This document shows, piece after piece, positions 12,444-18,935 of a stretch of 64,000 nucleotides of DNA. The first letter of the stretch is position 1. The number at the start of each line of letters is the position of its first letter. Under the pieces are notes generated by a model. That model did not search any database, had not been told where the DNA came from, and saw only the letters and a program-made list of their open reading frames with translations. The DNA is from Riemerella anatipestifer. GTDB lineage: Bacteria; Bacteroidota; Bacteroidia; Flavobacteriales; Weeksellaceae. The position numbers and the translations under genes are program-made. The DNA is taken from positions 1 through 64,000 of the forward strand of contig NZ_QXHU01000005.1 in the NCBI RefSeq assembly GCF_009663465.1. Direction: 5' to 3'.

Positions 12444-13139
12444 CTAGCAACTAGTTAAAATTTAGTAGTTTCCATAATTCTTTTTCCATATCCTTTGACT
12501 CTTTTCTCCATCTCCACTCATACTCTTTATAAATAGAGTACAAAAGTAGATTTCACCCCATTAAATTTTGTTCATCTTCGCTTGGTAAAACTCCAAAAAC
12601 TTTCTATTCCATTAATATGAACACCATTCTGATTTGAAAAACTTTTACTCTTATCAATTCTAAAATGCTTCTTGTATCCCATATCTAAAAGTCCACTATA
12701 ACCTCGCCAAACATCTGTAAACGAAATACTTTCCAATGAAACTTTTCCTCGAATAACTTTTTTTAACGTTTCACTTTTTGCATTTGGAATCAGTTCGGTA
12801 TAAAACGTCTTTTCTTTCAAAAACGTCAAAAACAGATTGTTTCCAAGTTCCTCTTCCTCGTTTTTGTGGTCTGTTAGTCCCTCGTAATCGCCTTGCTCCA
12901 AAATAAACCTCATCTAATTCAACTTCTCCAAAAAAAATAAATTTAAATCTTCTTGTTGTTTTTTCAAAAATTACTTCCCGAAAGATCCTAAAATATCGGT
13001 TAATGGTGTTTCTATTGAGCTCTAAAATTTCTGCTATTTTCGCTGCATCAATATTGCTACAAAACACTTGATTATTTTTTACTTTAATAATGCATTGAAT
13101 AGAATTATTGTTATTCCTGTTTAATTTATTGGTTACTAG
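12444..13139 (-). mobile_element. Remnant IS1595-family insertion sequence
   Basis: Extent estimated from the transposase remnant and from partly matching ends CTAGCAAC at 12444-12451 and GTTACTAG at 13132-13139 (7 of 8 in inverted orientation). No flanking target duplication is evident. The element sits between tpx and tig and is defective. Confidence 0.5.
12451..13100 (-). pseudogene. Broken IS1595-family (ISXO2-like) transposase
   Basis: Minus-strand pieces match an ISXO2-like DDE transposase in order: a helix-turn-helix-like start (IAEILELNRNTINRYF), the first acidic block VELDEVYFGARRLRG with KRGRG, then VFDVFERK, then after a frameshift near 12805 the block ELIPNAKSETLKKVIRGKVS, DVWRGYSGLLDMGYKKHFRI and HINGIESFWSFTKRR. 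A stop codon interrupts at 12572-12574; the usual C-terminus (KFNG...EYEWRW...LWKLL) is still readable to 12451. A frameshift and an internal stop mean that it cannot make transposase. The candidate ends CTAGCAAC (12444) and GTTACTAG (13139) are weak inverted repeats. Confidence 0.85.
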
Positions 13140-13206: not shown

Positions 13207-14541
13207 TTAACCTTGTACTTCTTTTAAGAAATCATCATGAGAGATTTTACTTTCCTTTTTAGAAGCTTTCTCTAAGATAACATCTTTTAGTTTAGCCATA
13301 GCTACCTCTGAAGATATTTGTCTTACTTGCTCTTGGTTTTTAAGCATTTCTACAGCGTACTTTTGGATTTCCTCATCAGAAAGATGGTGGATGCCGTAAA
13401 TAGCTAACTGATTTCTCACTAATTGCTCAGCTTGAGCTAAAACATCAGCATAATCTATCTTAACATCATTGTCAGACATTAGCTTACCTTCAATAACTTG
13501 ATATTTAATTTGGTTCTTTTCCGCTTCAAATATCTCCTTAGCTTGCTCTTCTGTTGCAATATTTGGATTAGAGAACATTAACCACTTGATTAAGAATGTT
13601 TCTGGAAGTTTTACTTCTTCCTTTTCGGTGATTTGCTCCAATACCTTATTTACAAAGTGTACATCTGCATTCTGTTGGAAATATTCGTCTAATTCAGATT
13701 TTACTTTAGCTTTAAGCTCTTCTTCAGACTTTACAGTATCTTTACCGTAAACAGAGTCAAATAACTCTTGGTTTAGTTCAGCTAAGTTCAGTTTGTAAAT
13801 ATCTTTTACAGTTACTTCAACTTCATTGTGATGTAGTTGCTCCGCTTCTTCTTTAGCAAATCCTAAAAACTTAGCTAAATCCTCATCTTTAGTAAGGTCT
13901 TCTTTAGAAACTTTTACAGACTCCTCTTTTTTAAGTTTTTTAACCAATTCAAAAGCAACTTTGTTTTCAGCATTGATAACCACATGCTTAGGCGCGTGGT
14001 GGTGCTCACCTTCTGCATCTTCTTCTACCACTTGAGAAACTTCTAGAGAGATGTAAGAATCTTTAGTTATTTTTTCTTGAGCTTCTCTTTCGGCAAATCT
14101 CTTTTGCATATTCTCTATGCTTTGCCCTACTTCTTTATCAGAAGCCTCTATCTTGTAGTGAGGAGCTTCATATTTTGCTAAATCAATGTTGAAACTTGGT
14201 TCGAAACCTACTTCAAAAGAAAGTTCTAATTGCTCCTGATTAGTGTCTAGTTCTTCTACTGGAACTGGTACAGGCTGTCCTAATAGTCTTAGTTTATTTT
14301 CGTTGATATAGTTATTAAGACCTTCTGAAACTTGCTTGTTGATTTCCTCGTAAGTTAATCCAGCTTCGTACTGTCTTTTAATCATTCCTAGTGGAGCTTT
14401 ACCTTTTCTAAAACCAGGAATAGTAGCGTTTTTAGCGTAGTTAATTAACTGTTTTTCAACTTTGTCTTTGTAATCTTTTTTATCCAAAGTTACTGTAAGC
14501 AAAGCGCTTACTTCATCGTGATTTTTACTCGTAACCTTCAT
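13207..14541 (-). CDS. tig: Trigger factor
   Basis: Ribosome-associated chaperone for nascent chains, 444 residues. The N-terminal ribosome-binding domain contains the signature GFRKGKAPLGMIKRQYEAGL (GFRxGKxP near residues 41-48). The C-terminal helical substrate-binding domain fills residues about 250-444. The middle, FKBP-like region is divergent (about 145-250, rich in Glu and His) and lacks obvious PPIase active-site residues, as in other Bacteroidota trigger factors, so peptidyl-prolyl isomerase activity is doubtful. A TATTTTTG box on the minus strand lies 22 nt upstream. Confidence 0.93.
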   Translation of the reverse strand: MKVTSKNHDEVSALLTVTLDKKDYKDKVEKQLINYAKNATIPGFRKGKAPLGMIKRQYEAGLTYEEINKQVSEGLNNYINENKLRLLGQPVPVPVEELDTNQEQLELSFEVGFEPSFNIDLAKYEAPHYKIEASDKEVGQSIENMQKRFAEREAQEKITKDSYISLEVSQVVEEDAEGEHHHAPKHVVINAENKVAFELVKKLKKEESVKVSKEDLTKDEDLAKFLGFAKEEAEQLHHNEVEVTVKDIYKLNLAELNQELFDSVYGKDTVKSEEELKAKVKSELDEYFQQNADVHFVNKVLEQITEKEEVKLPETFLIKWLMFSNPNIATEEQAKEIFEAEKNQIKYQVIEGKLMSDNDVKIDYADVLAQAEQLVRNQLAIYGIHHLSDEEIQKYAVEMLKNQEQVRQISSEVAMAKLKDVILEKASKKESKISHDDFLKEVQG

Positions 14542-14608: not shown

Positions 14609-14638
14609 AAATCAGCTTCAAATTTTCGGAGCTGATTT
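14609..14638 (-). terminator. Terminator of the TonB-receptor operon
   Basis: Eleven-bp stem AAATCAGCTTC / GGAGCTGATTT (one G-T pair) with an 8-nt loop, followed on the minus strand by TTTTTTCAT. It lies about 95 nt beyond the lipoprotein stop. Confidence 0.65.
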
Positions 14639-14732
14639 CATTCTTCGTGTATAGTGATAAATAACTATTGTAAAGTGCAATTTTGGTAAATGAAAGCAAA
14701 AAATACTAATAATTGCTCATAGTTATATAATT

Positions 14733-15299
14733 TTATTTAACATTAAATGTAGCATCAATATCCTCTTCTCCACCTGTTACAGTTCCTGCTTCATCTCCAT
14801 TAGCATCGCTCATTTTCACAGAAGTGGGAAGGTGGTAAAGTCTAATATTGGCTTTAGCTCCTGTTTTTGGAGCAGATGTTACTTGCCACTGTGTTTTTAG
14901 CCCTATCTTAGAGCCATCTTTTCTGGTGCTTTCAGCTTCGTCTTTTCTGGTAATTTTAACGTCTACATTAGAGAAATTGTAAGTGAAAAAATGTTCTTCC
15001 TTTAGTTCTATGATTTCACCAGTTACATCGTGGGTATGGTTATCATGAGGAGCCACTAAAGATAGTTGAACGTTATAAGTATTGTTTTCTTTTAAAATTA
15101 ACTCTTTATCAGCGCCTTCTGCACTAAATGTAGCCGTCTGAGTACTGTTGTCAGCAGTATTGGTAAGTGTAACGGTGAGGTATTGTACTTCATCGTGGTT
15201 ATGCACTTCTACAGGCACTTCATTATTGTCTCTACAAGAGTTGAGTGCTAAAATACTTATTACAGATAATACTACAGTTTTTAAAAGTGAATGTTTCAT
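14733..15299 (-). CDS. His-rich lipoprotein encoded with a TonB receptor
   Basis: 188 residues with a lipoprotein signal peptide and lipobox LALNSC (cysteine at residue 22), followed by RDNNE. Two histidine/acid clusters stand out: VHNHDEV (about 32-38) and PHDNHTHD (about 84-91), suggesting binding of a divalent metal. The rest is beta-rich (TVTLTNTADNSTQT...). It is the last gene of the operon and begins 37 nt after the TonB receptor stops. I read it as a surface or periplasmic metal-binding partner of the receptor; no named family is recognised with certainty and the metal is unknown. Confidence 0.75.
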   Translation of the reverse strand: MKHSLLKTVVLSVISILALNSCRDNNEVPVEVHNHDEVQYLTVTLTNTADNSTQTATFSAEGADKELILKENNTYNVQLSLVAPHDNHTHDVTGEIIELKEEHFFTYNFSNVDVKITRKDEAESTRKDGSKIGLKTQWQVTSAPKTGAKANIRLYHLPTSVKMSDANGDEAGTVTGGEEDIDATFNVK

Positions 15300-15336
15300 A
15301 ATGTTTTAAAATTGTTTAAATTAAAAATGTTAATAG

Positions 15337-17709
15337 TTAAAAATTAAATTGACAAGTGAAAATAATATTTCGTCCCAAAGCATCAGAGAAAAATCTCAAC
15401 CGATTAAGATATTCTCTGTAAGTTGTGTTGAATATATTATTAACACTCAAATTAAGCTGAATGTTTCTAGTGAGCTTTGCTCCAGCATTGAAGTTCCAAA
15501 TCTGATAACCTGTGGGCGGTGTGCTAATGTCTAGCCACTCTTTGGTTATTGTATTGTTCTCATATACATCGTAGGATAAAAGTCTCATAGGAAATCTTTT
15601 CTGCTTAAATACCACTAGGTTTTCTATTTGTATATGCCACGGTTTTTTATCTTTGCTATCATATCTTAGGGCGTTTTTAATCTGCATTGGAGGCATAAGT
15701 ATCAGAGGTTCTTTGTGAGTTAAATCTTGTCCGTACACATAGCTCATCGCTCCATTCCATTGTAATTTTGGGGTAATGTTAAGCTCCAAATCTATGTCTA
15801 TTCCATACATTTTGGCTTTAATCTGTTGATATTGCCATACAGGAAAATTCCCACGAATGGTACTTTCCACTCCGTTAGGCGTTTGGTTAATAAAACTATC
15901 GGAGGTGAAATAGTATGGATTAAGATTAAGTTTAAAACCATTAAGAACGGAGGCTTTTATACCAATGCTTAGGTGGGCTTGGTAGGTTTCCTCGTTTTTG
16001 ATGCTCATACTTCCCTTTTCAATGATGGCGGCAGCGTGGTGTAGTCCATCAGCGAATAATTCTGCGATATTAGGACTTCGGCTATTTCTTATCAAATTAA
16101 GTTTGGTAGTAAGAAAGCGAGTGGGCTGATATTCCATACCCAACGATGCTGATATATTGTGATAATAAAGTTTCGGACGCACCAATGTTTTCACACCTTT
16201 GCTTTCAATTACAAACTTCTGAAATGCTTGGGTGTAAGCTACCCAATCTTTATTAAGATAATATTTATAAACATCATAGAAATTCATATCATACCTTAAA
16301 GCCGCTTCCCATTTCCAAAGATTTTTTTGATACTTGAAAATAGAAAAAGCACCAGTATCATACCTGTGGTAATCTGGTATTAAACGAGAACGCTCCGTTT
16401 TTGGGTCGGGAAAATTAACTTGATAATTTCCTGATAAGCCTGTTTCCCACTGCCAGTTGGGTCTTTCTAATAGATGATAAAGAGCCAAACTTTGGGTGGT
16501 TAGTAATAGGTCGGTAGCAGGTTTATCGTTGTACGCTCCTCTACGAATATCATATTCAAATCTATGATTTTGCTGAAAGGCATACTCTAAAGTAAATTTT
16601 CCTAGTTTTCCTAACCTTTTGTAAGCCTCCAATTTAGCAATATGATGGCTGACTTCTTGTTTAGGATTCTCTATTTTATAACCAAAATTACCTGTAAAGT
16701 AGGATTGTCCGTTATTGATGGCATCGGCAAAGTTTCGTGCATTACTGATATGAGCTCCTTTATAAATTCCAAAATTTTGGTTGATGAAAGAATATTTAGC
16801 CGTGATTCCGTATTCGTATTCCCTTTTTTGTAGAGAAAAATGGAAGGCGTTTTCATCTGTACCTGTATTTTGTAAACTATAATGAGGCGTTTCCAAATCT
16901 CCTAGTTTCTTGGCAGAACCTTGCGTCCGCAAAGCCCAACCGTTTTGCCAAGTCTTTGTAATGTCCATATTCAGAGCTAAGCCTTTACCATTGCTGATGC
17001 CCGATAAAGCTACTTTGCCCATAAGGGTGTCTTTTTTAGGGTATTTGGGACTTTCTAATAGTATAACGCCACCTATGGCATCTCCACCGTACTTTAGTGC
17101 AGACGCTCCCTTTACAACATCTATATGGTCAAAAGTGTTGGGGTCCACGCTAGGAGCGTGTTCTATGCCCCACTCTTGTTCTGCCATTTTGATGCTGTTG
17201 TTCATCACTAATACTCTACTGCCGTAAAGTCCTTGTATGACGGGTTTAGAAATGTTATTCCCTGTTTTGATACTATTTACCCCAGAAATTTCAGACAATA
17301 TATTGCCTAGATTTTCGGTAGTTTTTTGTGCTAAAAAAGACTGTTCTAATGTTTTGATAACCGCTGTCCCTGACTTTTTATGAATACCGTGTACTACTAC
17401 CGTTTCTATTTCATTAGTATGATGTTCAAGGAAGATATTGATTTTAATATTACTATTAAGCGTTATCTTTCTAGTAAAAGATTCACAATCTAAGTGAGTT
17501 ACTAAAAGATGATAAGTTCCTTTTTTGTAAGAAAAATTAAAATTTCCTTGAGTGTCAGAAGTGGTGATGAGTTTTCCGTTAATACTTATTTTAGCATTAG
17601 CTAAAGGTGTATTGTCGTGCAAATCTCTTACCTGCCCTTCTATGAGATAAAGCTGTGCATTTAGAACAGTGCTGAAAAACAGCATCATTCCAATCCAAAT
17701 TGATTTCAT
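15337..17709 (-). CDS. TonB-dependent outer-membrane receptor, probably for a metal
   Basis: 790 residues: signal peptide (1-18, ending LNAQ), a carboxypeptidase-regulatory-like beta-sandwich (about 20-105, GQVRDLHDNTPLANAKISI), a plug domain (about 115-220, with RVLVMNNSIKMAEQEWG, HIDVVKGASALKYGGDAIGG) and a 22-strand barrel to the C-terminal Phe (IIFTCQFNF). The plug's QEWG.EHAP and the neighbours (a His-rich lipoprotein, and a small HxH/CxxC membrane protein upstream) resemble metal-uptake receptors of the ZnuD/heavy-metal type. The specificity is inference. It follows the small gene by 78 nt, which hold an inverted repeat. Confidence 0.85.
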   Translation of the reverse strand: MKSIWIGMMLFFSTVLNAQLYLIEGQVRDLHDNTPLANAKISINGKLITTSDTQGNFNFSYKKGTYHLLVTHLDCESFTRKITLNSNIKINIFLEHHTNEIETVVVHGIHKKSGTAVIKTLEQSFLAQKTTENLGNILSEISGVNSIKTGNNISKPVIQGLYGSRVLVMNNSIKMAEQEWGIEHAPSVDPNTFDHIDVVKGASALKYGGDAIGGVILLESPKYPKKDTLMGKVALSGISNGKGLALNMDITKTWQNGWALRTQGSAKKLGDLETPHYSLQNTGTDENAFHFSLQKREYEYGITAKYSFINQNFGIYKGAHISNARNFADAINNGQSYFTGNFGYKIENPKQEVSHHIAKLEAYKRLGKLGKFTLEYAFQQNHRFEYDIRRGAYNDKPATDLLLTTQSLALYHLLERPNWQWETGLSGNYQVNFPDPKTERSRLIPDYHRYDTGAFSIFKYQKNLWKWEAALRYDMNFYDVYKYYLNKDWVAYTQAFQKFVIESKGVKTLVRPKLYYHNISASLGMEYQPTRFLTTKLNLIRNSRSPNIAELFADGLHHAAAIIEKGSMSIKNEETYQAHLSIGIKASVLNGFKLNLNPYYFTSDSFINQTPNGVESTIRGNFPVWQYQQIKAKMYGIDIDLELNITPKLQWNGAMSYVYGQDLTHKEPLILMPPMQIKNALRYDSKDKKPWHIQIENLVVFKQKRFPMRLLSYDVYENNTITKEWLDISTPPTGYQIWNFNAGAKLTRNIQLNLSVNNIFNTTYREYLNRLRFFSDALGRNIIFTCQFNF

Positions 17710-17740
17710 TTAAAGATATGAAAATTAAAAGGTTAAAACC

Positions 17741-17763
17741 GTGTTCTAACAATGGTAGAACAC
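17741..17763 (-). promoter_or_regulatory. Inverted repeat before the TonB receptor
   Basis: GTGTTCTA (17741-17748) and TAGAACAC (17756-17763) are a perfect 8-bp inverted repeat with a 7-nt spacer, lying between the first and second genes of the operon, about 32 nt before the receptor ATG. It could be a repressor operator or an attenuating hairpin. Confidence 0.4.
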
Positions 17764-17787
17764 CTAGTGAAAACGATGTTATTTCTA

Positions 17788-18129
17788 TTAAATGGAAGGC
17801 GGTCCTCTAAGTAAGAAATAAATAGTCTGATTTTGAAGGGTATTTAGCATTTTGTAGCCTACGATAAGAATCGTAATTACTGATACTAAAACTTCAAAGT
17901 TTACCTTTTCGGGAAGTAGAGAATGTCCTGAAATGAAAAAATGACAGATAGAACAATCATCTCCCTTTAAATTGATTATCTTGTGATTCTGTTTTTGGGA
18001 AGAACTATAATTCCTATTGAAAGTTTCTTGGTGCGAGTGGAATACACTAGCCATCAGTAAAACCAATGTGTAAACCCACGCTAGACTTATACTTGTGATT
18101 TTTCTAAAAAAAGGCTTTCCAAAAAACAT
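17788..18129 (-). CDS. Small HxH / CxxC membrane protein, first gene of the TonB operon
   Basis: 113 residues with two membrane helices (about 13-30, ISLAWVYTLVLLMASVF; about 79-97, FEVLVSVITILIVGYKML). Just after the first helix is HSHQ, and a soluble loop has DDCSICHFF, giving possible metal ligands. The C-terminus ends LLRGPPSI, similar to the RxPP ends of DUF2946-type small proteins found beside TonB metal receptors. It is the first gene of the operon, and a TACCTTTG box on its strand ends 4 nt before the ATG. I infer a role in metal handling; no biochemical function is known to me. Confidence 0.7.
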   Translation of the reverse strand: MFFGKPFFRKITSISLAWVYTLVLLMASVFHSHQETFNRNYSSSQKQNHKIINLKGDDCSICHFFISGHSLLPEKVNFEVLVSVITILIVGYKMLNTLQNQTIYFLLRGPPSI

Positions 18130-18133
18130 TCTG

Positions 18134-18141
18134 CAAAGGTA
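18134..18141 (-). promoter_or_regulatory. Candidate -7 box for the metal-type TonB operon
   Basis: Minus-strand TACCTTTG fits TAnnTTTG and ends 4 nt before the ATG at 18129, implying a leaderless or nearly leaderless message. The upstream stretch contains TGTACA and TTGTTCTAAA-like half-sites that could bind a metal repressor, but I cannot assign one. Confidence 0.45.
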
Positions 18142-18204: not shown

Positions 18205-18935
18205 CTCTTGAAAGCAAAAAAATAAGATATTGAATCATTGTGAAAAATATGAATTTCGATACTATCCTTAGTACTAAATACTAAAAGATTTTCACAAAGT
18301 TGAGTCGAGGGAAAATTACCTACATAATTGAGCAATATTAGTTTCTATTCTCTTTTTTATTTTCATTTCTTATTTTCAATTTTGTTTTGGAAAATTTAAC
18401 AAAGTAATATCCGTTTTCCACATCGGAACCGAAAGATTTATCCTAGCATAATTGAATAAATCTACCTGCAATGCTTTACTGATGTATCCTATGCCTCCGA
18501 TTAGCAAACAATTTTTTAAGTTTTCTTTAATATTGCGAAGGTTATTCACATCGTGAACATTTGTAGATGAAAAATCGAAAGAGTGGAAGATTCCCTTCTT
18601 GTCACAAACAGCGTGAAATTTATAGCCTAAATATTTCGACTTTTATGCAGCGACAGGTTTAATCTCATCCGTTGAACAAATTGAAAAACAGTTTGCACAG
18701 TTAATTTTACCTATTTGAATCGGTATCGAATCTACAATGAAAATACCAATAAAATCTAAAAACTTGTGACTCAAAGTTTCCCTGATTTTTTCAAGCTTTC
18801 TTTTCCTTTTATATAACGCTTCATTCAATTTTTTCTTCCAAATCAGTTCTGAAATACATCTAACACAACTTTTATAGGCATATTATTGAGTACCATAACT
18901 TCCAAATCAGACAACCAAGAGGTCTAATCCGTCTG
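18205..18935 (-). pseudogene. Decayed IS982-family transposase
   Basis: Minus-strand fragments line up in the order of an IS982 transposase: LSDLEVMVL near 18900, then KRKRKLEKIRETL, then the first catalytic block FIVDSIPIQIGK (about 18700-18720), then YLGYKFHAVCDKKGIFHSFD, DVNNLRNIKENLKNCLLIGG.GY, LSVPM, then RIETNIAQLC and a C-terminal RIVSKF..FTMIQYL near 18235. Several stops and frameshifts separate the fragments, including a stop after IKPVAA at 18643. It cannot encode an active enzyme. Related elements are known from Riemerella (IS982 family), from memory. Confidence 0.8.

Follow-up and report, generated by a model that had tools for sequence, protein, structure and literature searches.

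A probable TonB-dependent zinc importer with a dedicated lipoprotein partner in Riemerella anatipestifer

A three-gene operon of Riemerella anatipestifer appears to encode an outer-membrane, TonB-driven importer of zinc that works with a dedicated surface lipoprotein, a reading to which we give a probability of roughly two in three. Judged from sequence, zinc is the best-supported and most likely substrate because three lines of evidence point to it: the match of the receptor to the zinc receptor ZnuD, the residues of its predicted metal pocket, and the Zur-like regulator genes and operator palindromes that accompany the operon in more distant relatives. ZnuD-like receptors are already known, and the new element is most likely the pairing of such a receptor with a surface lipoprotein for zinc; no zinc TonB system with a dedicated surface lipoprotein was found in the literature searched. 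Outer-membrane zinc uptake in the Bacteroidota has been little described, and within that literature only a study of ZntR touches on it (PMC11960050). Many receptors changed in the R. anatipestifer zntR mutant, and the study names candidate receptors without testing them (PMC11960050). The operon is a concrete candidate for this step: its receptor has a predicted pocket, its lipoprotein belongs to a family absent from Pfam and NCBIfam, and in outgroups it comes with an operator that can be put to the test.

The operon lies within the window, which is the whole 64,000-nucleotide stretch of DNA that was analysed, and the part under study (14609-18141) stretches from a terminator-like hairpin up to and including the promoter element. 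On the minus strand the order is small membrane protein gene, receptor gene, lipoprotein gene and hairpin, followed by the trigger factor gene (Table 1); read on the same strand, the hairpin runs into a T tract. All three genes named in the preliminary description are present, with their HSHQ, CSICH, VHNHDEV and PHDNHTHD motifs, and their grouping into one operon is borne out by comparison across 71 Flavobacteriales loci, 41 from Weeksellaceae (the window among them) and 30 from other families of the order. The receptor and lipoprotein genes are adjacent in all 71 and co-directional in 70, the exception being locus L134, where the receptor gene lies on the opposite strand. Among the Weeksellaceae loci the lipoprotein gene is always 3' of the receptor gene (41/41) and the small gene leads in 40 of 41; in the other families the two genes remain adjacent (30/30) and almost always co-directional (29/30), with variable order. 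The lipoprotein is present in 99 of 148 Weeksellaceae genomes, and a wider lipoprotein profile finds matches in 105 of 296 genomes order-wide, part of them through signal-peptide similarity only.

Table 1. Features of the operon and its borders, in window coordinates
Feature	Position	Strand	Evidence
Bacteroidota -7 element TACCTTTG	18134..18141	minus	sequence; conserved among relatives
Small membrane protein gene, 113 aa	17788..18129	minus	ORF
Inverted repeat GTGTTCTA-N7-TAGAACAC in the gap between small gene and receptor gene; probable intercistronic mRNA hairpin	17741..17763	minus	
TonB-dependent receptor gene, 790 aa, ZnuD-like	15337..17709	minus	Pfam, profile, fold, conservation
Lipoprotein gene, 188 aa, beta-sandwich, probably surface-exposed	14733..15299	minus	ORF, model, conservation
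Terminator-like hairpin in the gap between lipoprotein gene and trigger factor gene	14609..14638	minus	hairpin listed for the plus strand; T tract read on the minus strand

The promoter element ends 4 nt ahead of the ATG of the small gene, giving a near-leaderless mRNA, as had been proposed. It conforms to TAnnTTTG, which we take to be the -7 element of Bacteroidota. This motif ends no more than 10 nt from the start of the small gene in 29 of 40 Weeksellaceae loci, with a mode of exactly 4 nt, as against 3 of 275 background ORFs and none of 41 at the receptor or lipoprotein starts; its occurrence is thus above chance and marks one transcription unit. Because the element stands at the small gene and is missing before the receptor and lipoprotein genes, transcription of the whole operon probably starts from one near-leaderless promoter, a conserved feature. 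Upstream of the promoter there is another palindrome, TTGTTCTAAATGTACAA; it was set aside, being present in the window only and missing from the other Riemerella. Remnants of mobile elements lie on either side on the minus strand, with a decayed DDE transposase (DDE_Tnp_1_3; IS982-like by eye) at 18500-18900, directly upstream of the promoter, and frameshifted fragments of an IS1595/ISXO2-type transposase at 12572-13067, downstream of the trigger factor gene. The trigger factor itself (13207-14541) carries the His-rich stretches GEHHHAPKH and LHHNEVEV, and its gene lies downstream of the operon in most relatives.

The receptor combines Pfam plug (PF07715) and barrel (PF00593) domains with an N-terminal CarbopepD-like domain. 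When the family profile was compared with solved structures, ZnuD of Neisseria meningitidis (PDB 4rdr, 4rdt, 4rvw) ranked first, at 1e-25 with a narrow alignment and 2.7e-42 with a wide one, followed by OprC and then by the Bacteroides receptor XusA (9gbc). ZnuD was also the best fold match of the predicted model (pLDDT 85), with Z 40.3 and an rmsd of 2.3 A over 585 residues; OprC (Z 37.4) and HasR (Z 37.0) followed, the three structural scores lying within about 3 Z of one another. The zinc ligands of ZnuD are Asp-99, His-100, Glu-340 and His-499, in a cavity whose size suits a single metal ion (PMC4557270). Three of the four, Asp-99, His-100 and His-499, align with E183, H184 and H557 of the receptor, and at both ligand positions the printed chain differs from the numbering of the paper by the same 14 residues. 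The region of the fourth ligand falls outside the alignments, and H355 and E385 are invariant candidates for its role. All five positions (E/D183, H184, H355, E385 and H557) are invariant across the 71 loci, position 183 being Glu in the window receptor and Asp in 15 of the 30 other-family members.

The receptor nevertheless differs from ZnuD in several respects, including an identity of only about 18%, the CarbopepD-like domain at its N-terminus, the partner lipoprotein and small protein encoded beside it, a His-rich loop 3 that is not seen here, and Zur-like control that, for this operon, is found only in outgroups. Because it scores below the curated cut-off of the ZnuD model NF038289 (91.5 against 950 bits), and likewise below those of the TonB copper receptor model of OprC, TIGR01778 (86.8 against 472 bits), and the haemin model TIGR01785 (112 against 316.85 bits, the top NCBIfam match), the receptor is, on the alignments, ZnuD-like in its predicted working and is not classed as a ZnuD proper. 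A second, divergent triad occurs in the same genome (locus L139, C22, about 148.2-151.7 kb), consisting of a small CxxC/RGPP protein of 121 aa, a TonB receptor of 684 aa and a lipoprotein of 295 aa; its receptor has Q in place of H557 and perhaps serves another metal.

Evidence that bears on the metal also comes from the neighbours of the operon in other families. A Zur-like regulator gene lies near the receptor/lipoprotein pair in 8 of the 30 other-family loci; in six of these (families f7, f11 and f15) the Fur-family gene comes next after the receptor gene, and in the two others it is nearby. C80, C98, C101, C133 and C136, corresponding to the sensory Cys and the structural Cys4, are invariant in all eight regulators, and the sensory Cys of each aligns with Cys88 of E. 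coli Zur, mutation of which abolishes zinc sensing. Scores against the Zur model NF008646 reach at best 35.2 bits, below the cut-off of 167, and for the six regulators that were scanned the top NCBIfam model was Zur in three and PerR in the rest, all below cut-off. In Weeksellaceae, regulators of the same clade stand beside MerC genes in 11 of 20 cases and beside COG0523 genes in 6 of 20, COG0523 proteins being common members of Zur regulons (PMC6103462).

The palindrome TGCAACANNGTTGCA, counted at up to two mismatches, is found upstream of the operon in 12 of the 30 non-Weeksellaceae loci, representing five families, against a background of 15 in 3,000 random windows drawn from those loci; in four of the 12 no Zur-like gene adjoins the operon. 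Of 11 such genomes scanned in full, 7 contain the palindrome, for the most part at the receptor/lipoprotein operon. It looks, from these arrangements, as if a Zur-like protein controls the operon in several distant relatives. Copies of TGCAACANNGTTGCA near a ZIP gene in two genomes (G166 and G193) were left uncounted, as they fall within a conserved coding stretch, DATLLQ. At locus L145 (about 1074-1974) the palindrome separates two divergent genes, one for a Fur-family regulator and one for a His-rich DUF4625 lipoprotein. Zur-regulated TonB receptors are known from Caulobacter, where two of ZnuK, ZnuL and ZnuM have been shown to matter in zinc scarcity; Caulobacter belongs to another phylum, its Zur sites are of the TGTTAT..ATAACA type rather than TGCAACANNGTTGCA, and for the present operon the Zur-like gene and box are confined to outgroups. 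As far as Weeksellaceae are concerned, the box is lacking upstream of the operon in all 41 loci, the window included, none of which has a Zur-like gene nearby. Such a gene is absent from six of six Riemerella genomes (R. columbina DSM 16469 is a same-genus genome), and the only Fur-family protein of the 2.31-Mb genome that contains the operon lacks the sensory Cys and the Cys4 positions; by gene content, Zur-like control is absent in Riemerella.

The lipoprotein matched no Pfam or NCBIfam family. It is modelled with confidence as a beta-sandwich (pLDDT 87.6), for which Foldseek found no significant relative (best E 4.4e-3), and the best VIA-align match, RhoGDI (Z 6.7), was discounted as within the range of common beta-sandwich matches. 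The lipid-bearing Cys22 is conserved in 71 of 71 loci, and in 54 of 71 at least two acidic residues occupy positions +2 to +6 from it. An acidic stretch after the lipid-bearing Cys fits a signal for surface export, and the lipoprotein is probably exposed on the cell surface. The preliminary description had supposed, from the VHNHDEV and PHDNHTHD clusters, that this protein captures metal at the surface; capture is still plausible in view of the export-type signal, but the clusters behind the claim are not conserved. They are specific to a lineage, missing in about a quarter of Weeksellaceae and in nearly all other families, with replacements of the DDLPQEEI/NGNED type in a Weeksellaceae subgroup and mostly NEE in other families. 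Three other residues, H103 (70/71), H156 (71/71) and D180 (70/71), are conserved and form a plausible candidate metal site.

The dispensability of the His clusters would also suit an arrangement in which zinc enters in complexed form, as a zincophore complex or within a zinc protein of the host, and this complex is recognised by the lipoprotein and bound in the receptor pocket; lipoprotein-assisted TonB systems of Bacteroidota such as XusAB do carry bulky complexes (PMC13142918). The pocket, however, matches that of ZnuD, with its cavity for a single metal ion (PMC4557270), and no zincophore genes were seen adjoining the operon, leaving entry as a complex unlikely. XusAB and BtuBG of Bacteroides resemble the Riemerella operon in having neighbouring genes for a TonB transporter and a surface lipoprotein, in the N-terminal carboxypeptidase-like domain and, for Xus, in a third, inner-membrane protein from a neighbouring gene. 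They differ in that their substrates are siderophores and vitamin B12, XusB recognising ferric siderophores (PMC13142918), and in that XusB is a beta-propeller whereas the lipoprotein here is a small beta-sandwich.

Import of copper or another soft metal by an OprC-type receptor, with the thiophilic metal handled by the small CxxC protein and by MerC-like neighbours, would draw on the position of this Pseudomonas copper receptor as the second-closest solved relative, on the CxxC motif itself, and on the MerC-family genes near loci L113, L118 and L125. Against it, the metal-site Cys and Met of OprC, presumably its copper ligands, both align with Glu in the receptor; the copper model score is below cut-off, and outgroups carry a Zur-like regulator and box, so that copper import is very improbable. 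A receptor for haem or siderophores, paired with a lipoprotein that binds iron, is the least credible substitute for zinc import, for although the haemin model is the top NCBIfam match, HasR stands high in the structural ranking and two facing His are also used by haem receptors, the haemin score is below cut-off, ZnuD itself was on such grounds first misannotated as a haem receptor (PMC4557270), and the outgroup regulators beside the pair are Zur-like, not Fur-like.

If zinc is indeed the substrate, the surface-anchored lipoprotein would capture the metal or a complex of it and might pass it to the receptor. As with ZnuD, the receptor would hold it in a buried pocket, to which E183-H184 from the plug loop and H557 from an extracellular loop contribute, until TonB opened the plug. 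The small protein, in which the motifs HxH (HSHQ in the window), CxxC (CSICH) and a C-terminal RxPP are nearly invariant, matches CzcI (17.4 of 100 bits) and LIC10965 (19.8 of 130 bits) weakly and below cut-off. Its placement at the inner membrane, as first suggested, is a guess; we infer that it handles metal on the periplasm-facing side, where it may receive or buffer zinc for an inner-membrane importer. Because ZnuA was not found in the same genome, which has one ZIP importer, that importer would probably be the single ZIP protein. The ZnuA family is missing from 94 of 100 Weeksellaceae genomes, and its absence from Riemerella and most of the family prompts one to ask how zinc is carried through the periplasm of these bacteria. 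A broader and distinctly tentative proposal is that these operons form an order-wide class of Flavobacteriales zinc importer, in which the lipoprotein takes the place of the His-rich loop of ZnuD and the small protein, as a zinc carrier, that of ZnuA.

The 8-bp inverted repeat reported ahead of the receptor is present, exact, and the sole perfect copy within the window. Taken alone, it gives a weak folding signal (RNAfold z = -1.2), and an Rfam search gave one match, at chance level. The stem is kept in four of five Riemerella genomes, with seven pairs intact in 28 of 28 alignment cells and U.G pairs in three of the four genomes; the fifth has lost the left arm. Aligned stem pairs in Riemerella hold no two-sided changes, so covariation support is lacking. 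A protein-binding operator is unlikely, because RNA pairing is kept via U.G and the sequence is unconserved beyond the genus. Of the regulatory hairpin once envisaged, the stem persists and a conserved protein-binding site does not. In many other genera the same gap holds an unrelated hairpin with mostly negative folding z-scores, and this, together with the stem kept with U.G pairs, is modest evidence that suggests an intercistronic mRNA stem, which may serve processing, stability or partial attenuation.
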